In this document: piece by piece, positions 4,462 to 30,148 of the stretch
How the letters are laid out: the number at the start of each line of letters is the position of its first letter
How positions within the stretch are numbered: position 1 is the stretch's first letter
NCBI GenBank assembly: GCA_029226955.1
Contig: JAQXZA010000010.1
Span: 1-39,278 of the forward strand
Length of the DNA stretch: 39,278 nucleotides
DNA from: Clostridia bacterium
Lineage (GTDB): Bacteria; Bacillota; Clostridia; Oscillospirales; Acutalibacteraceae
Reading direction: 5' to 3'
The notes under the pieces: generated by a model
The model's input: the letters and a program-made list of their open reading frames with translations, nothing else
What the model was told of the DNA's origin: nothing
Database searches by the model: none
Translations under genes and position numbers: made by a program

Positions 4462-4489
4462 AAAACACGAACATTATTTTAAATGCAAT

Positions 4490-4732
4490 GACGGAGAGAA
4501 GTAGCGGTTCAATGATTTTTCAGAGAGATGTCTGTTTGCTGAAATGACATTATTATCAAATCCGTGAAATGCACTCCAACAGCTTACAGGGGGAATTTTT
4601 TAGTATCCCTGTACGGTTTCCGCCGTTATCGGACTAATGAGGACGGATATTTCCGTTGAATCAGGGTGGAACAGCGTAGCAAAGCCACGCCCCTTTTTGC
4701 ATATTTATTGCATTAAGGAGCGTGGCATTTTT
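4490..4732 (+). promoter_or_regulatory. T-box riboswitch, cysteine-specific, with terminator
   Basis: The leader contains the T-box sequence AGGGTGGAACAGCG (4663-4676), which pairs with the tRNA acceptor end. It is followed by an intrinsic terminator: GCCACGCCCCTT (4684-4695) pairs with AAGGAGCGTGGC (4715-4726), then ATTTTT. Stem I has the loop-E signature AGTA (4500-4503) opposite GAA (4567-4569 region). The trinucleotide at the specifier position is TGC (4570-4572), a cysteine codon, and the next genes are cysE and cysS. In known T-boxes uncharged cognate tRNA stabilises the antiterminator, so transcription of cysES should rise when charged tRNA-Cys is low. Boundaries are approximate. Confidence 0.93.
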
Positions 4733-17136: not shown

Positions 17137-17180
17137 GCGAAGTTCATACCGAGTGCCGCTTTCTGTGTGAGGTGGCAGAA

Positions 17181-17600
17181 ATGTTGATAGGTTCATATCA
17201 GCATAATATTGACTCAAAAGGTCGTGTCATTATGCCGGCAAAGTTCCGTGAGGAGCTGGGAGAGGTTTTTTATGCGACAAAAGGCACTGACTCGTCAATA
17301 ACTGTCCTGTCAAAAGAATCGTGGGACGAACTCGGTAAAAAGATATGTGCCTTGCCGTCATCAAAGACAAAAGACCTTCAAAGATTTCTTTTTTCGAGTG
17401 CGGCGGAGCTTATCCCCGACAAACAGGGAAGAGTTCTCATTCCTCAGATGCTCAGGGATTATGCACATCTTGAAAAAGATGTTATGATTATCGGCACGGG
17501 TTCAAGAGTGGAAATATGGGACGCTGAAAGATGGAATCAGTATAATAATGATATTTCTGAAACTCAGGTGCTTGAAGTAATGAATCTTTTTGGACTTTAA
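17181..17600 (+). CDS. mraZ: Transcriptional regulator MraZ
   Basis: MraZ is the AbrB-fold regulator that starts most dcw clusters and represses its own operon. The 139-residue product has two tandem SpoVT/AbrB-like half-domains, each with the family pattern: LIGSYQHNIDSKGRVIMPAKFREEL and FSSAAELIPDKQGRVLIPQMLRDYA. The DSKGR and DKQGR loops contact DNA in known structures. ATG 17181 follows GAGGTG by 6 nt; the longer frame to 17112 would run through the operator. rsmH starts 12 bp after its stop. Confidence 0.96.
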   Translation: MLIGSYQHNIDSKGRVIMPAKFREELGEVFYATKGTDSSITVLSKESWDELGKKICALPSSKTKDLQRFLFSSAAELIPDKQGRVLIPQMLRDYAHLEKDVMIIGTGSRVEIWDAERWNQYNNDISETQVLEVMNLFGL

Positions 17601-17612
17601 CGGAGAATGACT

Positions 17613-18563
17613 ATGGAATTTTCACATAAACCTGTACTGCTTAACGAAACGATAAATTCACTTGCAATAAAGCCAAACGGTATTTATCTTGACGGAACTG
17701 CCGGCGGCGGCGGTCACTCGTCAGAAATACTCAAACGACTTGACGGTGGAAAACTTATCTGTGTTGACCAGGACCCCGACGCAATAGAAACGTTAAAAAA
17801 TCGTTTTGCGGAAAATAAGAATGTAACAATCGTGCAGTCGAATTTTTCCGAAATACCGACAATTATTGAAAATCTCGGAATACCGTCGCTTGATGGTGTT
17901 TTACTTGATATAGGTGTTTCATCACATCAGCTTGACACTGCCGAAAGGGGATTTTCCTATCATACGGACGCACCTCTTGATATGCGTATGAGTCAGAGCG
18001 GCACAACAGCCGCAGATTTAGTTAATACATTGCCGTTTAACGAGCTTGTGCATATTCTGTCGGCTTACGGTGAAGAAAAATTTGCAAAAAATATTGCCCG
18101 TGCAATAGAGCGTGAAAGGCAAAAAGAGCCGATAACAACGACTTTACAGCTTGCAGAAATTGTAAAAGAGGCTTATCCGGCAGCTAAAAGACACGACAAG
18201 CACCCCGCACGAAAAACTTTTCAGGCACTGAGAATTGCCGTAAACGGAGAACTTGACAGACTGTCTGAGGGACTTGACAATGCTTTTTCGTCACTGTCAC
18301 TTGGAGGACGGCTTGCGGTAATAACCTTTCATTCGCTTGAAGACAGAATGGTTAAACAGCGTATGTCAAAGTGGTGTGAGGGTTGTACCTGTCCAAAGGA
18401 TTTTCCGATATGCGTGTGCGGCAAAACACCCGACGCAAAACTTATAACACGAAAACCCGTTGAGGCAAGTGAACAGGAATTAAACGAAAACTTACGCAGC
18501 CGCAGTGCAAAACTACGTTGCTGTGAAAAAATAAAGAAAAAAGGATTTTTCAGTGAGAAATAA
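17613..18563 (+). CDS. rsmH: 16S rRNA (cytosine(1402)-N4)-methyltransferase RsmH
   Basis: RsmH (MraW) methylates N4 of C1402 in 16S rRNA. The 316-residue product has HKPVLLNETINSL at the start, SAM motif LDGTAGGGGHSSEIL, DGVLLDIGVSSHQLDTAERGFSY, DMRMSQ, RHDKHPARKTFQALRIAVN and VITFHSLEDRMVK, all family hallmarks. A Cys-rich segment (WCEGCTCPKDFPICVCGKTP) near the C-terminus is common in Firmicute members. ATG 17613 is 8 nt after GGAG; ATG 17607 is too close. Its 3' end overlaps the likely ftsL start by 11 bp. Confidence 0.96.
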   Translation: MEFSHKPVLLNETINSLAIKPNGIYLDGTAGGGGHSSEILKRLDGGKLICVDQDPDAIETLKNRFAENKNVTIVQSNFSEIPTIIENLGIPSLDGVLLDIGVSSHQLDTAERGFSYHTDAPLDMRMSQSGTTAADLVNTLPFNELVHILSAYGEEKFAKNIARAIERERQKEPITTTLQLAEIVKEAYPAAKRHDKHPARKTFQALRIAVNGELDRLSEGLDNAFSSLSLGGRLAVITFHSLEDRMVKQRMSKWCEGCTCPKDFPICVCGKTPDAKLITRKPVEASEQELNENLRSRSAKLRCCEKIKKKGFFSEK

Positions 18564-19119
18564 TAAATATATATACAGAAAGGAAGCCGAATCTGTGACA
18601 GCTAAAAAGGAAAGCGAAGCATACGATTTGTCGTTGTTTGAACCCGTTGAAAAAAAGCCGGCGGAAAAAAGCAAAAATACGGAAAATCAGAATCAAAAGA
18701 AAAATAATGTAATAAAATTTCAGCCGGGCGTTATAACAAAAGCCCAGCGAAGAAAAAGAAATCCGCTTATTATATTAAGCGTGGCATTTCTTACTGTTGT
18801 TGCATCGGTTGTTGCAATAACAATCGTACAAAGCAATGTTGTACTTAATGAACTCAATCAACAAATTCTGGAAGCAAACAAAACTATAACTCAACAAAAT
18901 AACCTTGCGGCACAGTATCAGCTTAAAGTGGACAGCAAGCTGTCGTCATCTGTCGTTCAGAATTATGCGGAAACAAAACTCGGAATGACTCAGGCAAAAA
19001 ACGCTCAGAAAAAATTCATTTCACTTTCTGACGGCGATTATGCGGAAGTAATAAGAGATGACGGTAAAAATAATGCACTTGAAACAATCACTGAAGCATT
19101 TACAGGACTGTGGTCTTAA
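18553..19119 (+). CDS. ftsL: Cell division protein FtsL (FtsL/DivIC-like)
   Basis: A 188-residue bitopic protein in the ftsL position of the dcw cluster. It has a charged cytoplasmic tail of about 75 residues, one transmembrane span (LIILSVAFLTVVASVVAITIV), and an extracellular coiled coil (SNVVLNELNQQILEANKTITQQNNLAAQYQLKVDSKL). A typical NYAETKLGM segment follows. FtsL links FtsQ/FtsB to the FtsW-FtsI synthase. Two GTG starts are plausible: 18553 (AAGGA 7 nt upstream, overlapping rsmH) and 18595 (AGGA 10 nt upstream, giving 174 aa). Sequence identity is weak in this family, so position and topology carry the call. Confidence 0.87.
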   Translation: MRNNKYIYRKEAESVTAKKESEAYDLSLFEPVEKKPAEKSKNTENQNQKKNNVIKFQPGVITKAQRRKRNPLIILSVAFLTVVASVVAITIVQSNVVLNELNQQILEANKTITQQNNLAAQYQLKVDSKLSSSVVQNYAETKLGMTQAKNAQKKFISLSDGDYAEVIRDDGKNNALETITEAFTGLWS

Positions 19120-19281: not shown

Positions 19282-21531
19282 ATGGCGAAAAAGGGAGCCA
19301 GGGCAAAGCTGTGGCGACGGTCACTTATAATTATGCTTATCATAATAATCGGGGGATTCGGCACAATAGCAGGAAGGCTTTTTTATTTGCAGACATATAT
19401 GTCCGAGGAATTACAGAAAAAAGCCGTTGACCAGCAGCTTGCGGATACAACCCTTACGGCAAAGCGTGGAAGTATCTATGATTCAAACGGAAACATTCTT
19501 GCACAGAGTATCACAGTGTGGAATGTGGTAATGGCACCAAGATACCTTAAAACAGACGAAAGCCGGAAAATCGTTGCCGAGGGACTTGCTAAAATTCTTG
19601 ACCTTGATGAAGATGAACTTTACGAAAAAACAAAACAAAATTCCTATTATGTTGTAGTAAAACGCAAGGTTGAAACAGATGTCAAAGAAAAGGTAGTAAA
19701 ATTTGCAAACGATATAGCCGATAAATACGGTATAGAACAGGTAATCAATACTATTGAGGACTATAAAAGATATTATACTCACGATAATTTTGCCGGTGAT
19801 GTTCTCGGATTTGTCGGTTCAGACGGTCAGGGACTTGCCGGAGTCGAATACCAGTATAACGAATATCTTACGGGAAAAGCCGGACGTATTTTAATCGCAC
19901 AGAATGCACTCGGTACAGAAATGCCGTTCCAGTACGAACAAAAGGTTGACGCAGAGGACGGCTACAACATTGTTCTTACAATAGACGAGAATATTCAGAG
20001 CATAATGGAAAAATATGTCCGTCAGACAATCAAGGAATTTAATGTTGCAAACCGTGGCTGTGCAATTATGATGAATGTAAAGACGGGTGCAATAATCGGT
20101 TTTGCGTGTGAGGGTTCATTTGACCCGAATGACCCGTTCACCATTGCCGACAAAAAAACACAAAAGGAAATAGATAAACTCCCTGAGGATAAACAAGCCG
20201 ATGCGGAATATACGGCACTCGCTAAACAGTGGCGTAACAAGGGTGTCAGCGATACATATATTCCGGGTTCGGTTTTCAAGATGATAACTGCCTCAGCCGT
20301 TCTTTCTGAGGGACTTGTAAAGGACAATACACGCTTTAACTGTTCGGGTTCTTATGTTCCGTTTGAGGGTTCAGGTTCAATAAGTTGCTGGAATTATGCG
20401 GGACACGGCTCACAGACTCTCGAACAGGCACTGTGTAATTCCTGTAACCCGGCATTTATGCAGATGGGTTTTCTGCTCGGACGTGAAAAGTTCTATGAAT
20501 ATTATGTTTCGTTTGGCTTTTCGGAAAAAACAGGAATAGACCTTCCGGGCGAAAGTGAAGACCAGTTCTTTCAGCACGAGGGCATAAACGGAATGGATCT
20601 CAGCGACCTTGCCGTTGCGTCATTCGGACAGAACTTTGCAATTACGCCTATTCAGATGCTTACAGCCTGTGCATCTATTGCAAACGGCGGAAACCTTATG
20701 CAGCCGTTTGTTGTTTCAAAGATTGTTGATTCAAGCGGCAATGTAGTAAAAACCACAGAACCTACCATAAAAAGACAGGCAATTTCAAAAGATATTGCAA
20801 AACAGATATGCGGTATGCTTGAACGTAATGCCATTGACGGCGGTGCAACAAACGGTTATGTTGCCGGCTACCGTATCGGCGGAAAAACAGGTACTTCCGA
20901 AAAAAAGGTTGACGAATATGGTAACTTGTCAAGCGACTATATTGCGTCATTCTGTGGAATTGCACCGAGTGATGACCCTGAAATTGCACTTCTCTGTTAT
21001 TTCGATACACCTGACAAAAATATCAACTATTACGGTTCAGCCGTTGCGGGACCGTGTTTCAGAAATATTATGAGTGAGGTTCTGCCGTACCTTGGTGTTG
21101 AAAAGATTTATTCTGACGCCGAAATGACAAAACTTGACACAACAACAAGTGCATACTATGGTATGAGTGTTGAGGCAGCACAGTCATTGGTTAAAAATGA
21201 CGGACTGAAATATGAGGTTGTTGGCAGCGGCAAGAATGTAATTGCACAAAATCCGGCGGCATATTCAACAATTCCAAAAGACGGTACTGTTGTGCTTTAT
21301 ACTGATACAGACAGTACAAAACAGCGTGTTACCGTTCCTGATTTCAGTAACTGTACGCTTTCTGAGGCAAATGTTCTTGCGTCAAACAACAATCTTAATC
21401 TCTGCATACAGGGTTCGTCGCTTTCTGAGGGAACATCTTATGCAAAGTCACAGGACATAAAGGCGGGAACTGAGGTTGAGTCTTATACCGTAGTAACGGT
21501 CACATTCAATCAGGATAACAGTATTATGTAG
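19282..21531 (+). CDS. ftsI: Class B penicillin-binding protein with two PASTA domains (FtsI/SpoVD type)
   Basis: This 749-residue septal transpeptidase cross-links peptidoglycan with FtsW. Domains in order: a cytoplasmic basic tail, one membrane span (about residues 14-34), a PBP dimerisation domain with AKRGSIYDSNGNILAQ, and a transpeptidase domain. Active-site motifs are S330xxK333 (PGSVFK), S387-C-N389 and K535-T-G (GGKTGTSE). Two C-terminal PASTA-like repeats run from about residue 630 to 745. PASTA domains bind muropeptides and occur in both division PBPs and SpoVD. Position after ftsL supports the division role; without a second copy in view the sporulation alternative cannot be excluded. 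Ribosome site AAAGGA precedes the ATG. Confidence 0.93.
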   Translation: MAKKGARAKLWRRSLIIMLIIIIGGFGTIAGRLFYLQTYMSEELQKKAVDQQLADTTLTAKRGSIYDSNGNILAQSITVWNVVMAPRYLKTDESRKIVAEGLAKILDLDEDELYEKTKQNSYYVVVKRKVETDVKEKVVKFANDIADKYGIEQVINTIEDYKRYYTHDNFAGDVLGFVGSDGQGLAGVEYQYNEYLTGKAGRILIAQNALGTEMPFQYEQKVDAEDGYNIVLTIDENIQSIMEKYVRQTIKEFNVANRGCAIMMNVKTGAIIGFACEGSFDPNDPFTIADKKTQKEIDKLPEDKQADAEYTALAKQWRNKGVSDTYIPGSVFKMITASAVLSEGLVKDNTRFNCSGSYVPFEGSGSISCWNYAGHGSQTLEQALCNSCNPAFMQMGFLLGREKFYEYYVSFGFSEKTGIDLPGESEDQFFQHEGINGMDLSDLAVASFGQNFAITPIQMLTACASIANGGNLMQPFVVSKIVDSSGNVVKTTEPTIKRQAISKDIAKQICGMLERNAIDGGATNGYVAGYRIGGKTGTSEKKVDEYGNLSSDYIASFCGIAPSDDPEIALLCYFDTPDKNINYYGSAVAGPCFRNIMSEVLPYLGVEKIYSDAEMTKLDTTTSAYYGMSVEAAQSLVKNDGLKYEVVGSGKNVIAQNPAAYSTIPKDGTVVLYTDTDSTKQRVTVPDFSNCTLSEANVLASNNNLNLCIQGSSLSEGTSYAKSQDIKAGTEVESYTVVTVTFNQDNSIM

Positions 21532-21573: not shown

Positions 21574-21595
21574 TTTCATCAAGAGGTGTTTTAAA

Positions 21596-22150
21596 TTGAC
21601 CAACAGAATTAAAACAGTACAAAATCCTAAACTTATTCTCGTTGCCTGTAAAAATTCCGAAAGAATATCAGGCATAATTTCGGATATTCTGAATTTCTGC
21701 TGTTACAATACCTGTATTGACAATTTTTCGGAAAATACGGATTTTATTATAAAAAATCATTCCGAAAATTTCACAATACCAAAAGACACAATAGCCTGTA
21801 CCGTTATATTTGACGGCACATTGGATTTAAGCGACAGTGTTATTCTGAAATTCAGAAACAAGGCGACATCATACGAATACTGTCTGAAAAAATACGGTGA
21901 AGATGTAAGAACCATTCTTACTTATTCATCAGAAAACTATGACGCTGATGTAACATACAGAAACAAAAGCACGGATTCCGACGGAGCTGCCGTATTTGAT
22001 ATAATCGGTACGGGAATACTCAGCCGTGTTCATCTGAAAAATTCCGTTTTTTCGATTGATGAGGTTCTGGTGTGTACTGCCGCACTTATCGCAACGGGAA
22101 TACCGATAGCCTCAATACTCGGATACTTCAATGCGTCCGAAGAAAAATAG
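21596..22150 (+). CDS. Mur-ligase-like protein lacking the ATP-binding P-loop, at the murE/murF position
   Basis: A 184-residue protein between ftsI and mraY, where murE and/or murF usually lie. I do not recognise it as a named family. By eye it follows the order of Mur ligase segments. KLILVACKNSERISGIISDIL (residues 12-32) lines up with the Mur pattern K-V-I-x-V-T-G-T-N-G-K-T..., but the GTNGKT P-loop reads CKNSER. VRTILTYSSENYDADV then resembles the VITYG...ADV strand, and HLKNSVFSIDEVLVCTAALIATGIPIASILGYF resembles the G-x-F-N-V-x-N-x-LAA-x-A-x-x-x-GI-x-x-x-x-I motif. The catalytic lysine and substrate domain are missing, so ligase activity is unlikely. Start TTG 21596 follows AAGAGGTG; a GTG at 21545 would read through a hairpin. 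Confidence 0.6.
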   Translation: MTNRIKTVQNPKLILVACKNSERISGIISDILNFCCYNTCIDNFSENTDFIIKNHSENFTIPKDTIACTVIFDGTLDLSDSVILKFRNKATSYEYCLKKYGEDVRTILTYSSENYDADVTYRNKSTDSDGAAVFDIIGTGILSRVHLKNSVFSIDEVLVCTAALIATGIPIASILGYFNASEEK

Positions 22151-22215: not shown

Positions 22216-23241
22216 ATGACAGGAATATGGACAGTAATAGCGGCGGTTGCAGCATTTGCAATAGCGGCACTTATGGGAATATGGCTCGTGCCGTTTCTCA
22301 GAAAACTGCATTTCGGTCAGACAATACTTGAAGTAGGGCCTAAGTGGCACAAAGGCAAACAGGGTACGCCAACTATGGGCGGATTTATGTTTATTGCCGG
22401 CAGTATTATCGCAACGGTATTATGCGTTATGCTGTTTCACATAACAGGCACTCAGAACGGTATATCTCCCGAAACAACCTTACAGTCTGCAAAAATTTAC
22501 GGCGGATTGTTTATGGCTCTTGCATTCGGTGCAATAGGCTTTATTGACGACTATATCAAAGTAATAAAGAAAAGAAACCTCGGTCTTACCGCAGTTCAGA
22601 AACTGCTTTTACAGTTTATTGTTGCCGCCGCTTATCTTGCAACAATGTACTTTTTCGGCGGAAACACATCAACCTACATTCCGTTTGTAGGAATGGTTGA
22701 CATAGGAATACTTTACTATCCGATTTCGGCAATACTCATTGTCGGAGTAGTAAATGCCGTAAACCTTACAGATGGTATTGACGGACTTGATGCGTCAGTA
22801 ACATTCTTTGCCTCAATTTTCCTGATTCTCATAGCAGGTTATACGGCAAGAATGGGACTTTCAATAATGTCAGCGGCTCTTGCCGGTGGTTGTCTGGGAT
22901 TTCTTATCTGGAATTTTCACCCGGCAAAAGTATTTATGGGCGACACAGGCTCGCTTTATCTCGGCGGATATATCTGTGCATTGACATTCGGTCTTGATAT
23001 GCCGATAATTCTCATACTTGTGGGACTTGTGTATATTATCGAGATGTTCTCCGTAATTTTACAGGTTACATATTTCAAGCTGACTCACGGCAAAAGACTT
23101 TTCAAGATGAGTCCTATACATCATCACTTTGAGATGTGCGGCTGGTCAGAAGTAAAAATCGTTGTTATATTCAGCGTATTTACGGCAATATGCGGAGCCG
23201 TCGCACTTATGATTATACTGACTCAGAATAACATTTTATGA
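22216..23241 (+). CDS. mraY: Phospho-N-acetylmuramoyl-pentapeptide transferase MraY
   Basis: MraY transfers phospho-MurNAc-pentapeptide to undecaprenyl phosphate, making lipid I. The 341-residue product has about ten membrane spans and the conserved cytoplasmic loops: KWHKGKQGTPTMGGFMF, GFIDDYIKVIKKRNLGLTAVQKL with the Asp pair, NAVNLTDGIDGLDA, FHPAKVFMGDTGSLYLGG and the PIHHHFEMCGWSEVKIV loop. The ATG is preceded by GAAAGGTGG. Next come ftsW and murG, which together complete and flip or polymerise lipid II. Confidence 0.97.
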   Translation: MTGIWTVIAAVAAFAIAALMGIWLVPFLRKLHFGQTILEVGPKWHKGKQGTPTMGGFMFIAGSIIATVLCVMLFHITGTQNGISPETTLQSAKIYGGLFMALAFGAIGFIDDYIKVIKKRNLGLTAVQKLLLQFIVAAAYLATMYFFGGNTSTYIPFVGMVDIGILYYPISAILIVGVVNAVNLTDGIDGLDASVTFFASIFLILIAGYTARMGLSIMSAALAGGCLGFLIWNFHPAKVFMGDTGSLYLGGYICALTFGLDMPIILILVGLVYIIEMFSVILQVTYFKLTHGKRLFKMSPIHHHFEMCGWSEVKIVVIFSVFTAICGAVALMIILTQNNIL

Positions 23242-23281
23242 TAAATTTACACCGTACTTATGAAAGGAAGTGCCTGTAAAA

Positions 23282-24532
23282 GTGCGATATGATTCCTCAC
23301 CGGCACGACAGTTGCCTCAGCGTTCACCGACACAGCCGCCACGTCAGAAACCGACGTCGGTTCAGGAGGAAAAACCCGTAGGTTTTCCGAAAAAAGTAAG
23401 AAACAAACTGAAAATTTTCTCAATCCGGCTCGGACTTGATATGACATTTATGTTCCTTGTAATTATCCTTGTAATTATCGGAATAGTAATGATGTTTTCG
23501 GCAAGTTATCCTGCTGCACTTGAATACACGGGCAGCAGTTATTATTATCTTATAAGACAATCGGTCTTTTCCGTTATCGGAATAGGCATAATGATACTTA
23601 TGTCATATTTTGACTATCACCATTTTCACAAAATTGCACCGTGGATTCTGCTTATTTCATATTTACTTCTTATAGCGGTACTTTTGTTCCCGTCATCTGA
23701 CGGAATACACAGATGGCTTAGACTTGGTATATTTGATATTCAGGCGTCGGAAATAAGCAAATTCGCAATAATACTGTTTCTTGCACACTGGGGTTCACTG
23801 CATTTTCGTGAAATGGATACATTCAAATTCGGAGTTCTTCCGGCACTCATAATACTTGTTTCAACTGCCATACTTCTCATACTTGAACCTCACTATTCAG
23901 GTATAGCAATTATTACAATGCTTGTTGCGGTAATGATGTTCGTAAGCGGAGTAAAGATAAGATACTTTGTGTTTGCTGGTATTCTTATTGCCGCCGCCGT
24001 TGTGGTTCTTGCAATAACGGGTCAGCTCGGCTACGCAATGGAACGTCTTGACGGCTGGGGTCAGGCACTCACTTATACTGACGCTGATATGTGGAATAAA
24101 ACCTATCAGACACGTAATTCACTCTATGCAATAGGTTCAGGCGGCTTGTGGGGACTCGGACTCGGTCAGTCACGTCAGAAATATCTTTATATTCCGGCGG
24201 CTCAGAACGACTTTGTTTTTGCTGTTGTATGCGAGGAACTCGGCTTTGTCGGTGCTATGATAATACTTCTTGTTTTTGCACTTCTTGTATGGAGAGGAAT
24301 AACCATTTCAATGCGTGCAAAGGATAAATTCGGTTCACTTCTTGGCATAGGACTTTCGGCACAGATAGGCTTACAGGTAATTCTCAATATAATGGTAATT
24401 ACCGACTGGATGCCGAACACAGGTATCAGTCTGCCGTTTTTCAGTTACGGCGGTTCATCACTTATAATGCTTCTTGCCCAGATGGGTATAATACTTTCAA
24501 TTTCAAGAACATCAAACTTAGAAAAGGTTTAG
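23282..24532 (+). CDS. ftsW: SEDS glycosyltransferase FtsW
   Basis: FtsW polymerises lipid II at the septum together with the class B PBP. The product is 416 residues from this start. After a roughly 40-residue basic, Pro/Gln-rich cytoplasmic tail there are about ten membrane spans, with SEDS signatures GIHRWLRLGIFDIQASEISKFA, EPHYSGIAII, the large extracellular loop around MERLDGWGQALTYTDADMWNKTYQTRNSLYAIGSGGLWGLGLGQSRQK, and QNDFVFAVVCEELGFVGA. ISLPFFSYGGSSL follows near the end. Start: AAAGGA ends at 23268; GTG 23270 overlaps it, while GTG 23282 has about 13-nt spacing, so 23282 is preferred with moderate certainty. Confidence 0.93.
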   Translation: MRYDSSPARQLPQRSPTQPPRQKPTSVQEEKPVGFPKKVRNKLKIFSIRLGLDMTFMFLVIILVIIGIVMMFSASYPAALEYTGSSYYYLIRQSVFSVIGIGIMILMSYFDYHHFHKIAPWILLISYLLLIAVLLFPSSDGIHRWLRLGIFDIQASEISKFAIILFLAHWGSLHFREMDTFKFGVLPALIILVSTAILLILEPHYSGIAIITMLVAVMMFVSGVKIRYFVFAGILIAAAVVVLAITGQLGYAMERLDGWGQALTYTDADMWNKTYQTRNSLYAIGSGGLWGLGLGQSRQKYLYIPAAQNDFVFAVVCEELGFVGAMIILLVFALLVWRGITISMRAKDKFGSLLGIGLSAQIGLQVILNIMVITDWMPNTGISLPFFSYGGSSLIMLLAQMGIILSISRTSNLEKV

Positions 24533-24545
24533 GGGGTATATATAA

Positions 24546-25673
24546 ATGAGAATATTGTTTGCCGGCGGCGGAACAGCCGGACATATCAATCCGGCTCTTG
24601 CCATTGCCGGATATGTACGTTCACGACAGCCAGACGCAGAAATACTTTATGTAGGTTCAAAGGGCGGAATGGAGGAAAGACTCGTTCCTCAGGCAGGATA
24701 TGAATTTCGTGGAATTGTCGTTCAGGGTTTTAAGCGTAAATTAACACCGAAAGCAATCAAAGACAATATCATAACCGTAAAAAAAGCAATTTCGGCAAGT
24801 GCCGAGTCAAAGAAAATAATAAAAGAATTTAAACCCGATATATGCGTCGGAACAGGCGGATATGTCAGCGGCCCTGTTTTAAGAGCGGCAGATAAACTCG
24901 GTATTCCGATTATTATTCACGAACAGAACGCTTTTCCGGGAGTGGCAAACAAAATGCTCGCAAAAAGAGCGGCAAGGGTTATGCTTGCAATGCCGGCGGC
25001 AAAACAGCATTTCCCCGAAAACTGCAACTTTGTTAATACGGGTAATCCAGTCCGTGGCGATATTATAACCGTTGACAAAGAACAGGCAAGAAAGGAACTC
25101 GGACTTGACAGTCGTCCTGTAATACTCTCATTCGGCGGTAGTCTTGGTGCAAGAATTATCAACGAATCACTTGCCGATATTATCGCACGTAGTGCAAAGG
25201 ACGGAAAATATCAGCATATACACGCTTATGGTCAATACGGCAAATGGTTTCCCGACCTTTTGAAAGAAAAGGGTGCTGACCTCGAAAATGCTAAAAATCT
25301 TGACATCAGGGAATACATAAACAATATGCCTACCTGTCTTGCGGCGGCAGATTTAGTAATAGCAAGAGCCGGTGCAATCACTATCAGCGAAATTGAAGTA
25401 AAGGGCAAACCGTCAATTCTCATTCCGTCACCTAATGTTGCAGAAAATCACCAGTATCATAACGCTATGTCGCTTGTCGAGAAAAATGCGGCGGTAATGA
25501 TTGAGGAAAAAGACCTTACTCCCGAAAAACTCACAGAAGAAATTGACAAATTAGCATCAGACCCCGACAGACTGCGTGAATATTCCGAAAACGCACAGAA
25601 AATGGCAGTGTCGGACGCATCAAAGCGTATTTATTCCGTTATCGTTGAAACTATCGCAACATCAAAAAAGTAA
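24546..25673 (+). CDS. murG: UDP-GlcNAc:lipid I N-acetylglucosaminyltransferase MurG
   Basis: MurG adds GlcNAc to lipid I at the inner face of the membrane, giving lipid II. The 375-residue GT-B enzyme has the N-terminal glycine loop FAGGGTAGHINPALAIA, GTGGYVSGPVL, HEQNAFPGVANK and the second glycine-rich loop SFGGSLGARIINE. The donor-binding RAGAITISEIEVKGKPSILIPSPNVAENHQYHNA in the C-terminal half is also present. It begins 13 bp after ftsW with a GGGGG site, so the pair is co-translated. An 87-bp gap then precedes murA. Confidence 0.97.
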   Translation: MRILFAGGGTAGHINPALAIAGYVRSRQPDAEILYVGSKGGMEERLVPQAGYEFRGIVVQGFKRKLTPKAIKDNIITVKKAISASAESKKIIKEFKPDICVGTGGYVSGPVLRAADKLGIPIIIHEQNAFPGVANKMLAKRAARVMLAMPAAKQHFPENCNFVNTGNPVRGDIITVDKEQARKELGLDSRPVILSFGGSLGARIINESLADIIARSAKDGKYQHIHAYGQYGKWFPDLLKEKGADLENAKNLDIREYINNMPTCLAAADLVIARAGAITISEIEVKGKPSILIPSPNVAENHQYHNAMSLVEKNAAVMIEEKDLTPEKLTEEIDKLASDPDRLREYSENAQKMAVSDASKRIYSVIVETIATSKK

Positions 25674-25769
25674 AATATATTATCTGATAAAAATTTCTCA
25701 GAATATTCAATTTTCGTCATTATACAGCATATAATTATCTATGTAGTATAATATTGGAGGGTGAATGTT

Positions 25770-27023
25770 TTGAGCAGGCTTTTGGTTGAGGGAAAAAAAG
25801 AAATCTCAGGAGAAATTACCGCTCAGGGTGCAAAAAACAGTATTTTGCCGATTCTTGCGGCAACAATACTTTGTGACGGCGAAAGCTGTCTGAAAAATTG
25901 CCCGAATCTGACAGACGTTGATTTTTCTCTTGATATTCTTCACTATCTCGGCTGTAAAGCACACAGGGAAAACACCACCATAACCGTCAATGCCGAAAAT
26001 TTCGATAAAAGCACCGTTTCCGATTCACTTATGAAAAGAATGAGGTCGTCCGTTATTTTTCTCGGAGCGTTGCTCGGAAAAGCACATCACGCTGAAATTT
26101 CCTGTCCGGGCGGTTGTGAACTCGGTGCAAGACCTATCGACATTCATATATCATCTCTTAAAAAATTGGGAGCTGTTTTTGAACGGAATGACGATATAAT
26201 TATTTGTTCAGCACCAGACGGTCTTAAAGGCTGTAATATTGATTTGCGTTATCAAAGCGTGGGTGCAACCGAAAATATTATTCTTGCGTCGGTTCTTGCA
26301 AGCGGCACAACGATTATATCAAATGCCGCCCGTGAACCTGAAATAACTGACCTTGTGGCATTTCTTAATAAATGCGGAGCGAAAATTTTCGGTGCCGGCA
26401 CGGAAACAATTCTGATTGAGGGAGTAAAAAAACTTACAGGTGCAGAGCATAAAATCATACCTGACAGAATAGCAATAGCAACATATATGGCTTGTACCGC
26501 AGTAACAGGCGGTTGTCTTACGGTTTATGACGTTATTCCAGAACATATACGGTCAGTTATTCCGTTTTTCAGGGAAACGGGCTGTGTAGTAAAATGCACC
26601 GAAAACGAACTGAGAATTTTTGCACCCGAAAAACTTACTTCCCCTGAACTCATAACAACAAAGCCTTATCCGTCGTTTCCTACGGACGCACAGCCGCCGC
26701 TTATGTCGGTTGCGGCAGTGGGGGGCGGAATTACCGTTTTTGTTGAAAACGTCTTTACAAACCGTTACAATCACGTTCCGTCACTGAGAAAACTTGGTGC
26801 AAACATCATAGTCAACGACAGGCTTGCAATCGTAACAGGCGTAAAAAAACTGCACGGCACTTCTGTCAATGCTATGGATTTGCGTGGGGGAGCGGCTCTC
26901 GTTGTTGCGGCTCTTGCGGCAGAGGGAACAACCGAAATTAACGGCTTTGAACATATTCTTCGTGGATATGACAGAAGTCTTTTTACCAAAACAGACGAAA
27001 ATACCTACAAACCGAATTTTTAA
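25770..27023 (+). CDS. murA: UDP-N-acetylglucosamine 1-carboxyvinyltransferase MurA
   Basis: MurA transfers enolpyruvate from PEP to UDP-GlcNAc, the first committed step of peptidoglycan synthesis and the target of fosfomycin. The 417-residue product has AQGAKNSILPILAATIL, the catalytic cysteine at residue 116 in PGGCELGARPIDIH, and LRGGAALVVAALAAEG near the C-terminus. The Cys (not Asp) suggests the fosfomycin-sensitive form. Start TTG 25770 is 9 nt after GGAGG; the in-frame GTG at 25761 abuts that site. Two TATAAT-like hexamers in the 87-bp gap before it (near 25730 and 25748) could give a local promoter, but no good -35 is clear. Confidence 0.95.
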   Translation: MSRLLVEGKKEISGEITAQGAKNSILPILAATILCDGESCLKNCPNLTDVDFSLDILHYLGCKAHRENTTITVNAENFDKSTVSDSLMKRMRSSVIFLGALLGKAHHAEISCPGGCELGARPIDIHISSLKKLGAVFERNDDIIICSAPDGLKGCNIDLRYQSVGATENIILASVLASGTTIISNAAREPEITDLVAFLNKCGAKIFGAGTETILIEGVKKLTGAEHKIIPDRIAIATYMACTAVTGGCLTVYDVIPEHIRSVIPFFRETGCVVKCTENELRIFAPEKLTSPELITTKPYPSFPTDAQPPLMSVAAVGGGITVFVENVFTNRYNHVPSLRKLGANIIVNDRLAIVTGVKKLHGTSVNAMDLRGGAALVVAALAAEGTTEINGFEHILRGYDRSLFTKTDENTYKPNF

Positions 27024-27103
27024 CTGAATTATCGTCAGTCCTCCATGTAATAGTGGGGGACTGTAAAAATACTTTTGCAGAACTTAATAAGGGAATGATA
27101 AAA

Positions 27104-28585
27104 GTGGAAAAACGACAATCGGGCGGCAGACCGTCAGATAAACCACAAAAAAGCAATAATCAGAGGTCAGGCAGTGCCGCCAGTCAAAAGCAGAACAGAC
27201 CGCCAAACAGACCACCTAACAGACCGACACAGTCTGTTAATACTCAAAAAAGACCGCCGAACAGACCTGTTCAGTCATCAAACACTCAGAAATCCAAAAA
27301 TTTCAGCACCAATCCTCAGCCGAATAAACCCCGTTCTTCACAACAGCAGAAAACAGTACATAAACCGACTTCATCACAGCAGAATTTACAAAAAAACAAT
27401 ACTCAGTACCAAAAGCCGAAACAGCAACGCCTACCACAGAAAAAGCCTGTACAACAGCGTAGCATTTCACAGGCTGATGTTGATATACAGGCAGAGGAAA
27501 TTCTGAATAAACCCAGAAAATTAACTCGTCAACAGGAGTATTCAAAACCGCTTGCACCGGCAAAAGAACCGATAAGTCCGTACAAACGCAAAATGAAACG
27601 TGTGCTTTTCTATATGGTAACCATTGTTATTCTTTTTGCTGTGTGTTGTGTTCTGTCACTTACGGTATTTTTTAAGATTGACAATATCGAGGTAGAGGGA
27701 AAAACACGTTATGAAAAGGACGATATTATTTCATCTTGCCTTATCAATAAGGGCGATAATCTGATTTTGTGCAATACAGGCAGTGGAGAGGATAGAATTA
27801 AAAACGATTTTCCGTATATTGAAGAAGTCAGTATAGAGAAAAAACTTTTTAACACAATTATTATCACGGTCACCGAGGCAAAACCTACATCGGTTATCGA
27901 AAGCAAAGGACAATATGTTGTTCTCGGCAAAACAGGCAAAATAATTGAAATTGACAAAGAAAAGAAATACAGTGTTCCGACGGTTCTCGGTGCAGAGCTT
28001 GAAAAGGTAAAGCTGTCATCAACCGTTAAATATAAAGACGATAATGTCAGTAAATATGTTGATGATATTCTTGCGGCTGTCAGTGAAACAGGCATAAAGA
28101 ATATTGAAACGGTTGATATTTCCAACCTGTCCAAAATTACGCTTATCCGCAAAAACGGATTTAAAATAATAATCGGTACTCCCGAAGATGTTGAGTACAA
28201 ACTCAGAACAGCCAAAGCAATTATGGACGGAAATGTAAAGGACAGCGATTCAACAGGTGTTCTTGATGTATCTCTTGCGAGTGCTGACGGCGGAAAATCC
28301 TATCTTAAAGACGGAGCGTCAGCCGAAAGCTCAGTGCAAAGCAGTAAACCTGAAAACAGCAAAACAGAGAGCAGTAAGCCTGAAAGCAGTAAAACCGAAG
28401 AAAGCTCATCAGCCGAATCATCAGGGGAAACATCATCAGAGCCGTCAGACGAATCATCAGAGGAAACATCACAGGAATCATCAGCCGAATCATCAGAGGA
28501 AACGTCACAGGAGTCGTCGGACGAATCATCAGAAGACACATCATCAGAGCCGTCAGAGGAATCTTCCGAAGAAACAGGCGAATAA
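27104..28585 (+). CDS. ftsQ: Cell division protein FtsQ/DivIB with long low-complexity tails
   Basis: A 493-residue bitopic divisome protein. The first 160 or so residues are disordered and rich in Asn, Gln, Pro, Arg and Ser, with RPPNRP repeats. One membrane span follows (RVLFYMVTIVILFAVCCVL, about 166-188), then a POTRA domain beginning FFKIDNIEVEGKTRYEKDDIIS, and a beta domain to about residue 410. The last 80 residues are a Ser/Glu-rich tail of SSE-E-TS repeats, probably extracellular linker. Family members are usually 250-300 residues, so both tails are long. GTG 27104 lies 9 nt after AAGGGA; ATG 27095 is too close to it. DivIB stabilises FtsL and DivIC. Confidence 0.88.
   Translation: MEKRQSGGRPSDKPQKSNNQRSGSAASQKQNRPPNRPPNRPTQSVNTQKRPPNRPVQSSNTQKSKNFSTNPQPNKPRSSQQQKTVHKPTSSQQNLQKNNTQYQKPKQQRLPQKKPVQQRSISQADVDIQAEEILNKPRKLTRQQEYSKPLAPAKEPISPYKRKMKRVLFYMVTIVILFAVCCVLSLTVFFKIDNIEVEGKTRYEKDDIISSCLINKGDNLILCNTGSGEDRIKNDFPYIEEVSIEKKLFNTIIITVTEAKPTSVIESKGQYVVLGKTGKIIEIDKEKKYSVPTVLGAELEKVKLSSTVKYKDDNVSKYVDDILAAVSETGIKNIETVDISNLSKITLIRKNGFKIIIGTPEDVEYKLRTAKAIMDGNVKDSDSTGVLDVSLASADGGKSYLKDGASAESSVQSSKPENSKTESSKPESSKTEESSSAESSGETSSEPSDESSEETSQESSAESSEETSQESSDESSEDTSSEPSEESSEETGE
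28320..28580 (+). repeat. Degenerate tandem repeats coding Ser/Glu tail of FtsQ
   Basis: Repeated GAATCATCAGAGGAAACATC-type units encode S-S-E-E-T-S and similar blocks. Such in-frame repeats commonly change length between strains. Confidence 0.75.
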
Positions 28586-28621: not shown

Positions 28622-28852
28622 GTTAGATTAAACAAAAAATTCGTCAAAAAATACATTTACTGTTTTAAGAATGATGAATATGCTTTAAAATGGATTATGT
28701 ATATTGAAATTTTGCGGTAAAAGTGGTAAATTTATAATAAGTTATATGGTTATAAAAAAATATAAAATCATTGTCAGTTCAATACGCTTATGACAATAAT
28801 TTGTCGGAGCAGTATTATGCTGTCAGATGTTAATTTTGAAGGGAGAAAAACA

Positions 28853-30148
28853 ATGCCTTACGAATTTGAAAACGATATTGACAACATCGTACACATTAAA
28901 GTTGTCGGAGTAGGCGGCGGCGGCGGAAATGCCATCGACCGTATGGTTGAGTATGTTTCAGGAGTTGAATTTATTTCAATCAACACAGACCAACAGGCAC
29001 TCAACCGTTCAAAAGCAACTCAGAAAATGCAGATAGGCGAAAAGATTACACACGGCAAGGGTGCCGGTTCAAAACCGGAAGTTGGCGAAAAAGCCGCAGA
29101 AGAAAGCCGTGAGGCTATCGCTGAAATTCTCAAGGATACCGATATGGTATTCATCACAGCCGGTATGGGCGGCGGTACAGGTACAGGTGCAGCTCCTATT
29201 GTTGCCGAGGTAGCAAAGGAAATGGGTATCCTTACTGTTGGTATTGTTACCACTCCTTTCCTTTTTGAAGGCAAAAGACGTATGGAGCAGGCTGAATCAG
29301 GTATCGCAAAACTGAAACAGCACGTTGATTCACTTATTGTTATTCCTAACGAAAGACTTAAACATATCAGTGAAGAAAAGATTACTCTCCAGAACGCATT
29401 CTTTGCCGCTGATGATGTACTCCGTCAGGGTGTTCAGAGCATAACTGACCTTATCGTAATTCCGGGTCTTGTAAACCTCGACTTTGCAGACGTTACATCT
29501 GTTATGAAGGACGCAGGCTATGCACTTATGGGCGTAGGTGTAGCGTCAGGCAAGGACAAGGCAAAGGTTGCCGCTCAGAACGCAATTTCAAGTCCTCTCC
29601 TTGGCACATCTATTCAGGGTGCAAAGGGTCTTATCGTCAACATCAAGGCATCACCTGACATTGGTCTTGACGAGATTCAGGAAGCATCAACAATGATTTC
29701 CGAACAGGCAGACGAAAACGCTATTATCATCTGGGGTGCTGCTCTTGATGAAGAAATGGAAGACTCAATCAGCGTTATCGTTATTGCAACAGGTTTCCCG
29801 ACAACCGATTCATACTCAATGCCGACAAATACAAAGAAAGATGAAAAGAAGTCAAATTCACCTTTTCAGTACGGTTCGGCAGTAACAACAAAGACTGAAC
29901 CGACAAGATTCGGTGCTGTTACAAGACCACAGGAAAAGCCACAGCCAAAACCACAGCAGCCTGTTTACAATCCTTATCAGGCTCCCACACAGCCACCTGT
30001 ATATCCTAATGCAACCACATCAACATATCCTAATGCAAATACCCGTCCGAGTCAGTCACCGGCTTCTAAGCCACAGCAGCCGGCACAGAAGAGCGGAGAT
30101 TCCGACGATTCATTTATGGATATTATGTCAATATTCAATAACAAATAA
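28853..30148 (+). CDS. ftsZ: Cell division protein FtsZ
   Basis: FtsZ is the tubulin-like GTPase of the Z ring. The 431-residue product has [15 protein letters not shown], the tubulin signature GGGTGTG at residues 106-112, [15 protein letters not shown] as T7 synergy loop, and a Pro/Gln/Thr-rich linker from about residue 325. It ends in [14 protein letters not shown], which departs from the common C-terminal D-x-P-x-F-L-R peptide that binds FtsA and SepF. ATG 28853 follows AAGGGAG by 7 nt. Codon choice is more biased than in its neighbours, as expected for an abundant protein. The promoter is unclear; TATAAT at 28733-28738 lacks a good -35. Confidence 0.98.

Follow-up and report, generated by a model that had tools for sequence, protein, structure and literature searches.

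It is an old idea that the gene order of the dcw cluster mirrors a physical complex. PAP11, a MurE-like protein of plants, is not known to work as a ligase within the plastid RNA polymerase, and the degenerate LytM factors are hydrolase regulators with a fold other than that of the Mur ligases; to our knowledge, none of these factors is a remnant lying where an ancestor has been displaced. In the excerpted text of PMC10336132, degenerate LytM factors such as DipM are presented as catalytically dead relatives of cell-wall enzymes kept as regulators, and the protein described here resembles them in that a relative of cell-wall enzymes has been retained without its catalytic function. With PAP11 it shares the use of a MurE relative as a structural part (PDB entries 8r6s, 9epc and 8xzv were among our matches; the MurE relative in plastid RNA polymerase and MurE2 are treated in an excerpt of PMC9434261), but PAP11 is full-length and belongs to a plant transcription complex, and we saw no sign of a link. 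An excerpt of PMC6420597 reports that MurG binds MurE and MurF, acting as a scaffold, and regards it as an open question whether Mur ligases are free enzymes or assemble with MurG and MraY into a complex. The Bordetella pertussis MurE-MurF fusion of the same excerpt is evidence of Mur ligases complexed with MurG, but it is an active bifunctional enzyme without a dead subunit.

Here, we describe a truncated MurE retained in the dcw cluster. It is this retention that appears to be new, pseudoenzymes of cell-wall families being already known; among the matches listed from the open-licence literature, we found no report of it. We read the protein as a MurE-derived pseudoenzyme and infer a role as a non-catalytic partner in lipid II assembly; taken jointly, the two claims are moderately probable in our judgement.

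The gene between ftsI and mraY and its distribution

The window, that is, the whole stretch of 39,278 nucleotides analysed, carries a dcw cluster in the order mraZ, mraW, ftsL-like, ftsI (with PASTA domain), the ORF under study, mraY, ftsW, murG, murA-like, ftsQ and ftsZ (Table 1). The initial annotation had reported the 184-aa ORF between ftsI and mraY, and we confirmed its exact coordinates (21596-22150) and the residues CKNSER at the position of GTNGKT; the ORF has a TTG start with a Shine-Dalgarno sequence before it. It had also stated that murC, murD, murE and murF are absent from the cluster, which agrees with the host genome (2.6 Mb, completeness rating 100%), where all six Mur_ligase_M genes found lie on contigs other than the dcw contig; we read these as adjacent murE and murF, murC, murD, murT and folC.

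Table 1. Features of the ORF and of the surrounding dcw cluster, in window positions
Feature	Position	Strand
mraZ, start uncertain (listed ORF from 17112)	17163..17600	+
mraW/rsmH	17607..18563	+
ftsL-like, judged from its position and length; Pfam gave no match	18553..19119	+
ftsI/spoVD-like PBP with PASTA domain, upstream neighbour of the ORF	19282..21531	+
Shine-Dalgarno (AAGAGGT) and spacer 5' of the TTG start	21581..21595	+
MurE-derived pseudoenzyme (almost certain), 184 aa, central Mur-ligase domain only, without P-loop	21596..22150	+
Former P-loop strand/loop/helix (KLILVACKNSERISGIISD), Walker A motif gone	21629..21685	+
Most conserved half: TYS..AD..RN....F..IG.GILSRV sheet, then two closing helices	21920..22147	+
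mraY, downstream neighbour of the ORF	22216..23241	+
ftsW	23270..24532	+
murG	24546..25673	+
murA-like (EPSP synthase family)	25761..27023	+
ftsQ/divIB-like with POTRA domain	27053..28585	+
ftsZ	28790..30148	+

A survey of the same slot in relatives recovered homologues in the genus and beyond it. The genus set comprised 64 genomes, and a homologue filled the murE slot in 40 of the 63 in which mraY was found; both neighbours were visible at 37 of these 40 loci, the contig ending beside the gene at the other three. The genus homologues are 171-185 aa long, share 30-56% identity with the window protein and are preceded by Shine-Dalgarno-like sites, many of them GGAGGTG. No homologue was recognised in the remaining 23 genomes (blastp, 1e-3), where the ftsI and mraY frames either overlap or are separated by no more than 285 nt. 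One further match (G004:C18; 24% identity, internal stop codons) was rejected as a slot homologue, being on the opposite strand near folC (L070). The records of 30 loci are nearly all metagenome assemblies or uncultured organisms, with the rumen named in two titles.

Across the taxonomic family, profile A1 matched in 98 of 398 genomes. In other genera, 41 matches had frames shorter than 350 aa; apart from G262 (320 aa, internal stop) we fetched them all, and these 40 lie between ftsI and mraY. One more short locus (G152, L236) came from the 140-genome survey described below, which brings the loci read outside the genus to 41, from 15 genera, each with both neighbours visible. Of the 52 matches in longer frames we fetched 20; full-length murE occupies the slot in 19 cases, and the remaining match is murF. 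Short genes therefore occur in at least 16 genera (g1, g64, g65, g70, g73, g76, g96, g99, g126, g128, g135, g147, g150, g159, g163 and g164). The next gene is mraY at 79 of 80 short loci, the contig ending at the remaining one (L022), and the frame is open at all 80, with one shortened (L115). In that homologue (L115:4163-4606) an early TGA leaves 146 aa from the chosen start, either a broken copy or an assembly error. Duplicates were excluded from these sets (L172, L075, L078 and L084; only L172 for the tree of dcw and non-dcw MurE).

Descent, fold and lost motifs

When the 80 short proteins were scored against four profiles (dcw and non-dcw MurE, dcw and non-dcw MurF), native dcw MurE was the best for every one of them, with median scores of 28.6 bits in the genus and 39.5 bits elsewhere, versus 12.2 and 17.4 bits for dcw MurF and about -2 for non-dcw MurE. 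Profile alignment with hhalign gave E-values of 2e-11 and 8e-24 against dcw MurE, the latter for the other-genus set, which reached 2e-9 against dcw MurF. We conclude that the short gene is almost certainly a remnant of the native dcw murE and its product a pseudoenzyme. In a tree built on the last 88 residues, with genus rows thinned to 10 of 40, 50 short proteins and 51 native MurE fell on opposite sides (99/98), the tree having 87 columns and an unsettled bootstrap. An origin from a dcw MurF, or from an unrelated gene of similar fold, had been prompted by NCBIfam, where weak matches to the murF model (best 1e-4) were seen for 11 of 50 members and outnumbered those to the murE models, and Foldseek does not distinguish the Mur ligases from one another; the direct comparison of MurE and MurF profiles nevertheless favours native dcw MurE so consistently that we find this origin hardly credible.

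The Mur resemblance is invisible to simpler searches. Single-sequence searches with the 184-aa protein against Pfam, NCBIfam and the PDB returned nothing meaningful, Pfam at 0.01 matched none of 50 family members, and NCBIfam gave weak matches in some; the likeness became significant only through profiles of native dcw MurE or through fold comparison of an alignment-based model. Structures of two members sharing 28-30% identity were predicted with pLDDT of 90.4 and 90.7, and Mur ligases were the best PDB matches of the predicted fold in Foldseek, so the similarity to Mur ligases that the initial annotation had proposed to look for is there, and it is strong. In the seven rows that profile A1 returned from the PDB, the top match was a short prokaryotic Argonaute (8e-4), followed by polyketide synthases and more Argonautes (0.07 to 0.6), with plant MurE-like chains at the bottom (0.92 and 1.2). 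We judged the Argonaute match to be due to chance, given the fold search, the profiles and the slot.

According to the predicted model, the short protein has the central Mur-ligase-middle fold and aligns with MurE residues of about 104-336 only. The UDP-MurNAc-binding N-terminal domain is missing, as had been noted, but so is the C-terminal ligase domain, which had not. Native dcw MurE of the same order have in common with the short protein this central fold, the place between ftsI and mraY or murF, and, towards the C-terminal end of this domain, the sequence of its second half (TYS..AD..A.N....E....G.I.R); they have, in addition, both terminal domains, the P-loop and the DNPR-type motif, in frames of about 480-560 aa.

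The loss of catalytic motifs extends to the whole short family. The P-loop pattern GxxGK[ST] was found in none of the 80 short proteins when whole open frames were searched, and the DNPR-type motif in none of the 80 versus 51 of 51 native MurE. The patterns DH[LM] (1 of 80 versus 50 of 51), Y..AK (3 of 80 versus 46 of 51) and TTP (2 of 80 versus 48 of 51) behave likewise, and S[SE]H occurs in 3 of 80; in these few members the short patterns match somewhere in the frame. The start codons of some other-genus homologues were guessed (e.g., L112 and L122), and the motif counts, redone on whole frames, did not change. NxDD and PGxFxVYN, present in native MurE and in the full-length MurE that has replaced it, are gone from the short proteins. 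Ligase activity is thus expected to be absent, as far as motifs can tell. The P-loop position and the AD anchor are 99 residues apart in the window protein versus 146-150 in 19 native MurE (those measured, of 51), and a median of 66 residues follows the anchor in short proteins versus 225 in the same 19.

Conservation in the short protein is highest outside the P-loop half. The protein retains the sheet TYS..AD..ARN....FE..G.GIIGRV, with a conservation of 1.00 for the Arg of GRV (0.73 in native MurE) and 0.98 for the Asp of AD (0.69 in native MurE), both positions being unconserved in the replacement MurE; these degrees compare loosely, since the native set covers many families. The anchor pattern missed five of the 31 replacement rows and two of the 51 native ones. 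The kept residues are native-type, unlike those of the other MurE, which may in part be plain inheritance. These observations bear on the idea that the protein is a ligand sensor, which would still bind nucleotide or UDP-MurNAc-peptide but, instead of ligating, would inform MraY or MurG of how much precursor is available. Such a sensor would suit the retained central fold and the constant position of mraY as the next gene, but the universal loss of the P-loop, the disappearance of NxDD, PGxFxVYN and the UDP-binding domain, and the peak of conservation outside the P-loop half make it unlikely.

The full-length MurE and the order of events

To see the slot in genomes not chosen by their short gene, we turned to a survey of 140 family genomes from 135 genera, 131 of them with mraY, sorted by coordinates. 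Native full-length MurE occupies the slot in 64, and in 10 it coexists with a second MurE elsewhere. The short gene is accompanied by a MurE elsewhere in 12, whereas 2 short-gene genomes gave no MurE match at the cut-off, one being 59% complete and the other having its MurE split over two contigs. In 39 genomes MurE lies elsewhere with no short gene detected, and 4 have neither. We read 37 slots of these 39 (contigs end in G184 and G231): 30 are empty of recognised genes, 1 holds another ORF, 4 hold murF alone, and 2 lack ftsI on the stretch.

Some of these slots are worth describing individually. The dcw slots with murF alone and MurE elsewhere (L200, L205, L208 and L214, with murF cut in L214) represent the converse partial loss. 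At L203 (1165-2079, minus strand), a 305-codon ORF that looks macrodomain-like by eye occupies the remnant's place between ftsI and mraY. At L227 (G243), ftsI and mraY are separated by an 865-nt gap that has small ORFs only and is not matched by the profile; it may hold a copy of the short gene that died recently. Of its tree neighbours, L122 carries a short gene and L225 has its slot empty.

The only full-length MurE found in short-gene genomes belongs to a separate lineage outside the dcw cluster, mostly beside murF, and it is this second enzyme that appears to make the cell-wall precursor there. Among 45 genomes picked for the short gene or for genus membership, MurE was found at 1e-60 in 43; none of the 30 MurE loci returned lies in dcw, and murF is within the stretch at 26 of them. 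The P-loop is present in 31 of 31 replacement MurE. A single branch separates 54 dcw MurE from 31 non-dcw MurE (100/100), and the second MurE of all 10 two-copy genomes groups with the latter (100/100) in a tree from which nine distant or long-branch rows of the order were left out. Several other families of the order likewise have second MurE matches outside dcw. The initial annotation had suggested that the short protein could be a degenerate paralogue: degenerate it is, but it descends from the native dcw gene itself, and it is the current full-length MurE that comes from another lineage. The Mur-ligase origin, the loss of the P-loop and the position in the murE slot, which it had also proposed, are borne out by the profiles, the fold, the motif counts and the slot survey. 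The host's own full-length MurE (L001) reads DNSR in place of the DNPR-type motif of native dcw MurE.

In a quick tree of ftsI and mraY from 116 loci, in which the genus was represented by 14, all 50 short and 37 empty loci fall together in a single clade (SH-aLRT 100). The group branching next to it, with an SH-aLRT of only 80, consists of G147 and G159, which is probably the sister of this clade; both carry full-length native murE and murF in dcw, the former retaining P-loop and DNPR motif, plus a second MurE. On the species tree, the short state requires 17 changes, which fit a single truncation, in an ancestor of a large clade of the family, followed by many losses better, we infer, than repeated truncation to similar ends; the short gene thus probably has a single origin. 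The presence of a second MurE would have made the native one redundant, the native MurE would then have been truncated once, and the remnant would have been retained in some lineages and deleted in others. Since three murF-alone loci are placed elsewhere on the ftsI and mraY tree, native MurE has been displaced at least once more.

Selection on the short gene and its possible role

Purifying selection acts on the short gene across at least 16 genera. Among the 25 genus pairs closest in mraY, Nei-Gojobori dN/dS was measurable in 17, with a median of 0.106 and a maximum of 0.324 (medians of 0.058 for mraY and 0.064 for ftsI); the eight short-gene pairs with dS below 1.2 gave a median of 0.144 and a maximum of 0.2. 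Of the 17 pairs chosen from other genera, 12 could be measured and gave a median of 0.142 and a maximum of 0.238; the measurable values for mraY ran from 0.026 to 0.071. All 29 measurable pairs thus lie below 0.35, dS being saturated in 13 more (8 of 25 in the genus and 5 of 17 elsewhere). By medians, the short gene is about two to three times less constrained than its neighbours.

The initial annotation had left room for a simply decayed ligase. With dN/dS well below 1, frames open throughout, and the same ORF in the same slot of many independent assemblies, the data point instead to retention, and they speak equally against an assembly artefact. Nor did we find the picture of a gene drifting neutrally or by frameshifts next to its intact counterpart: no murE or murF stands beside the short gene at any of the 40 genus loci, in the stretch read. 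A more nuanced version is that of an eroding relic, a jobless native murE that is still shrinking and whose ORF survives by chance. It would account for the faster evolution compared with mraY and ftsI, for the many losses on the tree and the 23 of 63 genus genomes without a homologue, and for the early stop in one copy. We nevertheless consider it improbable, in view of the uniformly low dN/dS, the open frames with their Shine-Dalgarno-like sites, the confident predicted fold shared by two distant members, and an age, spanning 16 genera of one clade, that is old for a neutral ORF.

Another possibility is that the frame matters and the protein does not, the ORF serving translational coupling or spacing of ftsI and mraY. 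Its constant place and the Shine-Dalgarno-like sites would agree with this, but amino-acid conservation and a predicted folded product would not be called for, and relatives manage without such an ORF in the slot; we regard this explanation as very unlikely.

With the loss of motifs speaking against catalysis and dN/dS against neutrality, a non-catalytic partner is the likeliest role. The remnant would stand in for native MurE in the cytoplasmic assembly of lipid II, with MraY, MurG, MurF and possibly the neighbouring PBP or FtsW, working as an adaptor or allosteric partner and not as an ATP-dependent ligase. Contact would go through the conserved three-stranded sheet, although which surface binds which partner is a guess. 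The replacement MurE has a surface unlike the kept one, a difference that would account for the retention of the old piece. Whatever the job, the short gene is dispensable in many lineages, as its presence requires 17 changes on the tree and 23 of 63 genus genomes lack a recognised homologue.

Going one step further, native MurE may have had a second, non-catalytic docking duty that the newcomer did not meet, selection paring the old enzyme down to the missing part; we put this forward tentatively, as a possibility that we would not bet on. If it is true, it would support the view of dcw gene order as the mirror of a physical complex, and the remnant would provide natural evidence, repeated across genera, for a structural role of a Mur ligase that is separable from catalysis. 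Evolution seems to have separated catalysis from position here, leaving in dcw a piece that is still under selection without its catalytic motifs, and the retention of a catalytically stripped third of MurE suggests an undescribed structural job. The domain of about 150-190 residues could be used as bait for MurE partners, in a family that profile libraries miss.

Two further observations concern the rest of the window. The Rfam scan of its whole length returned a T-box leader at 4479-4697 (RF00230, 126 bits), far from the murE slot, as its one match. In the FtsQ-like protein, the POTRA domain is flanked by a Pro/Gln/Lys-rich N-terminal tail and a long C-terminal tail of Ser/Glu repeats.
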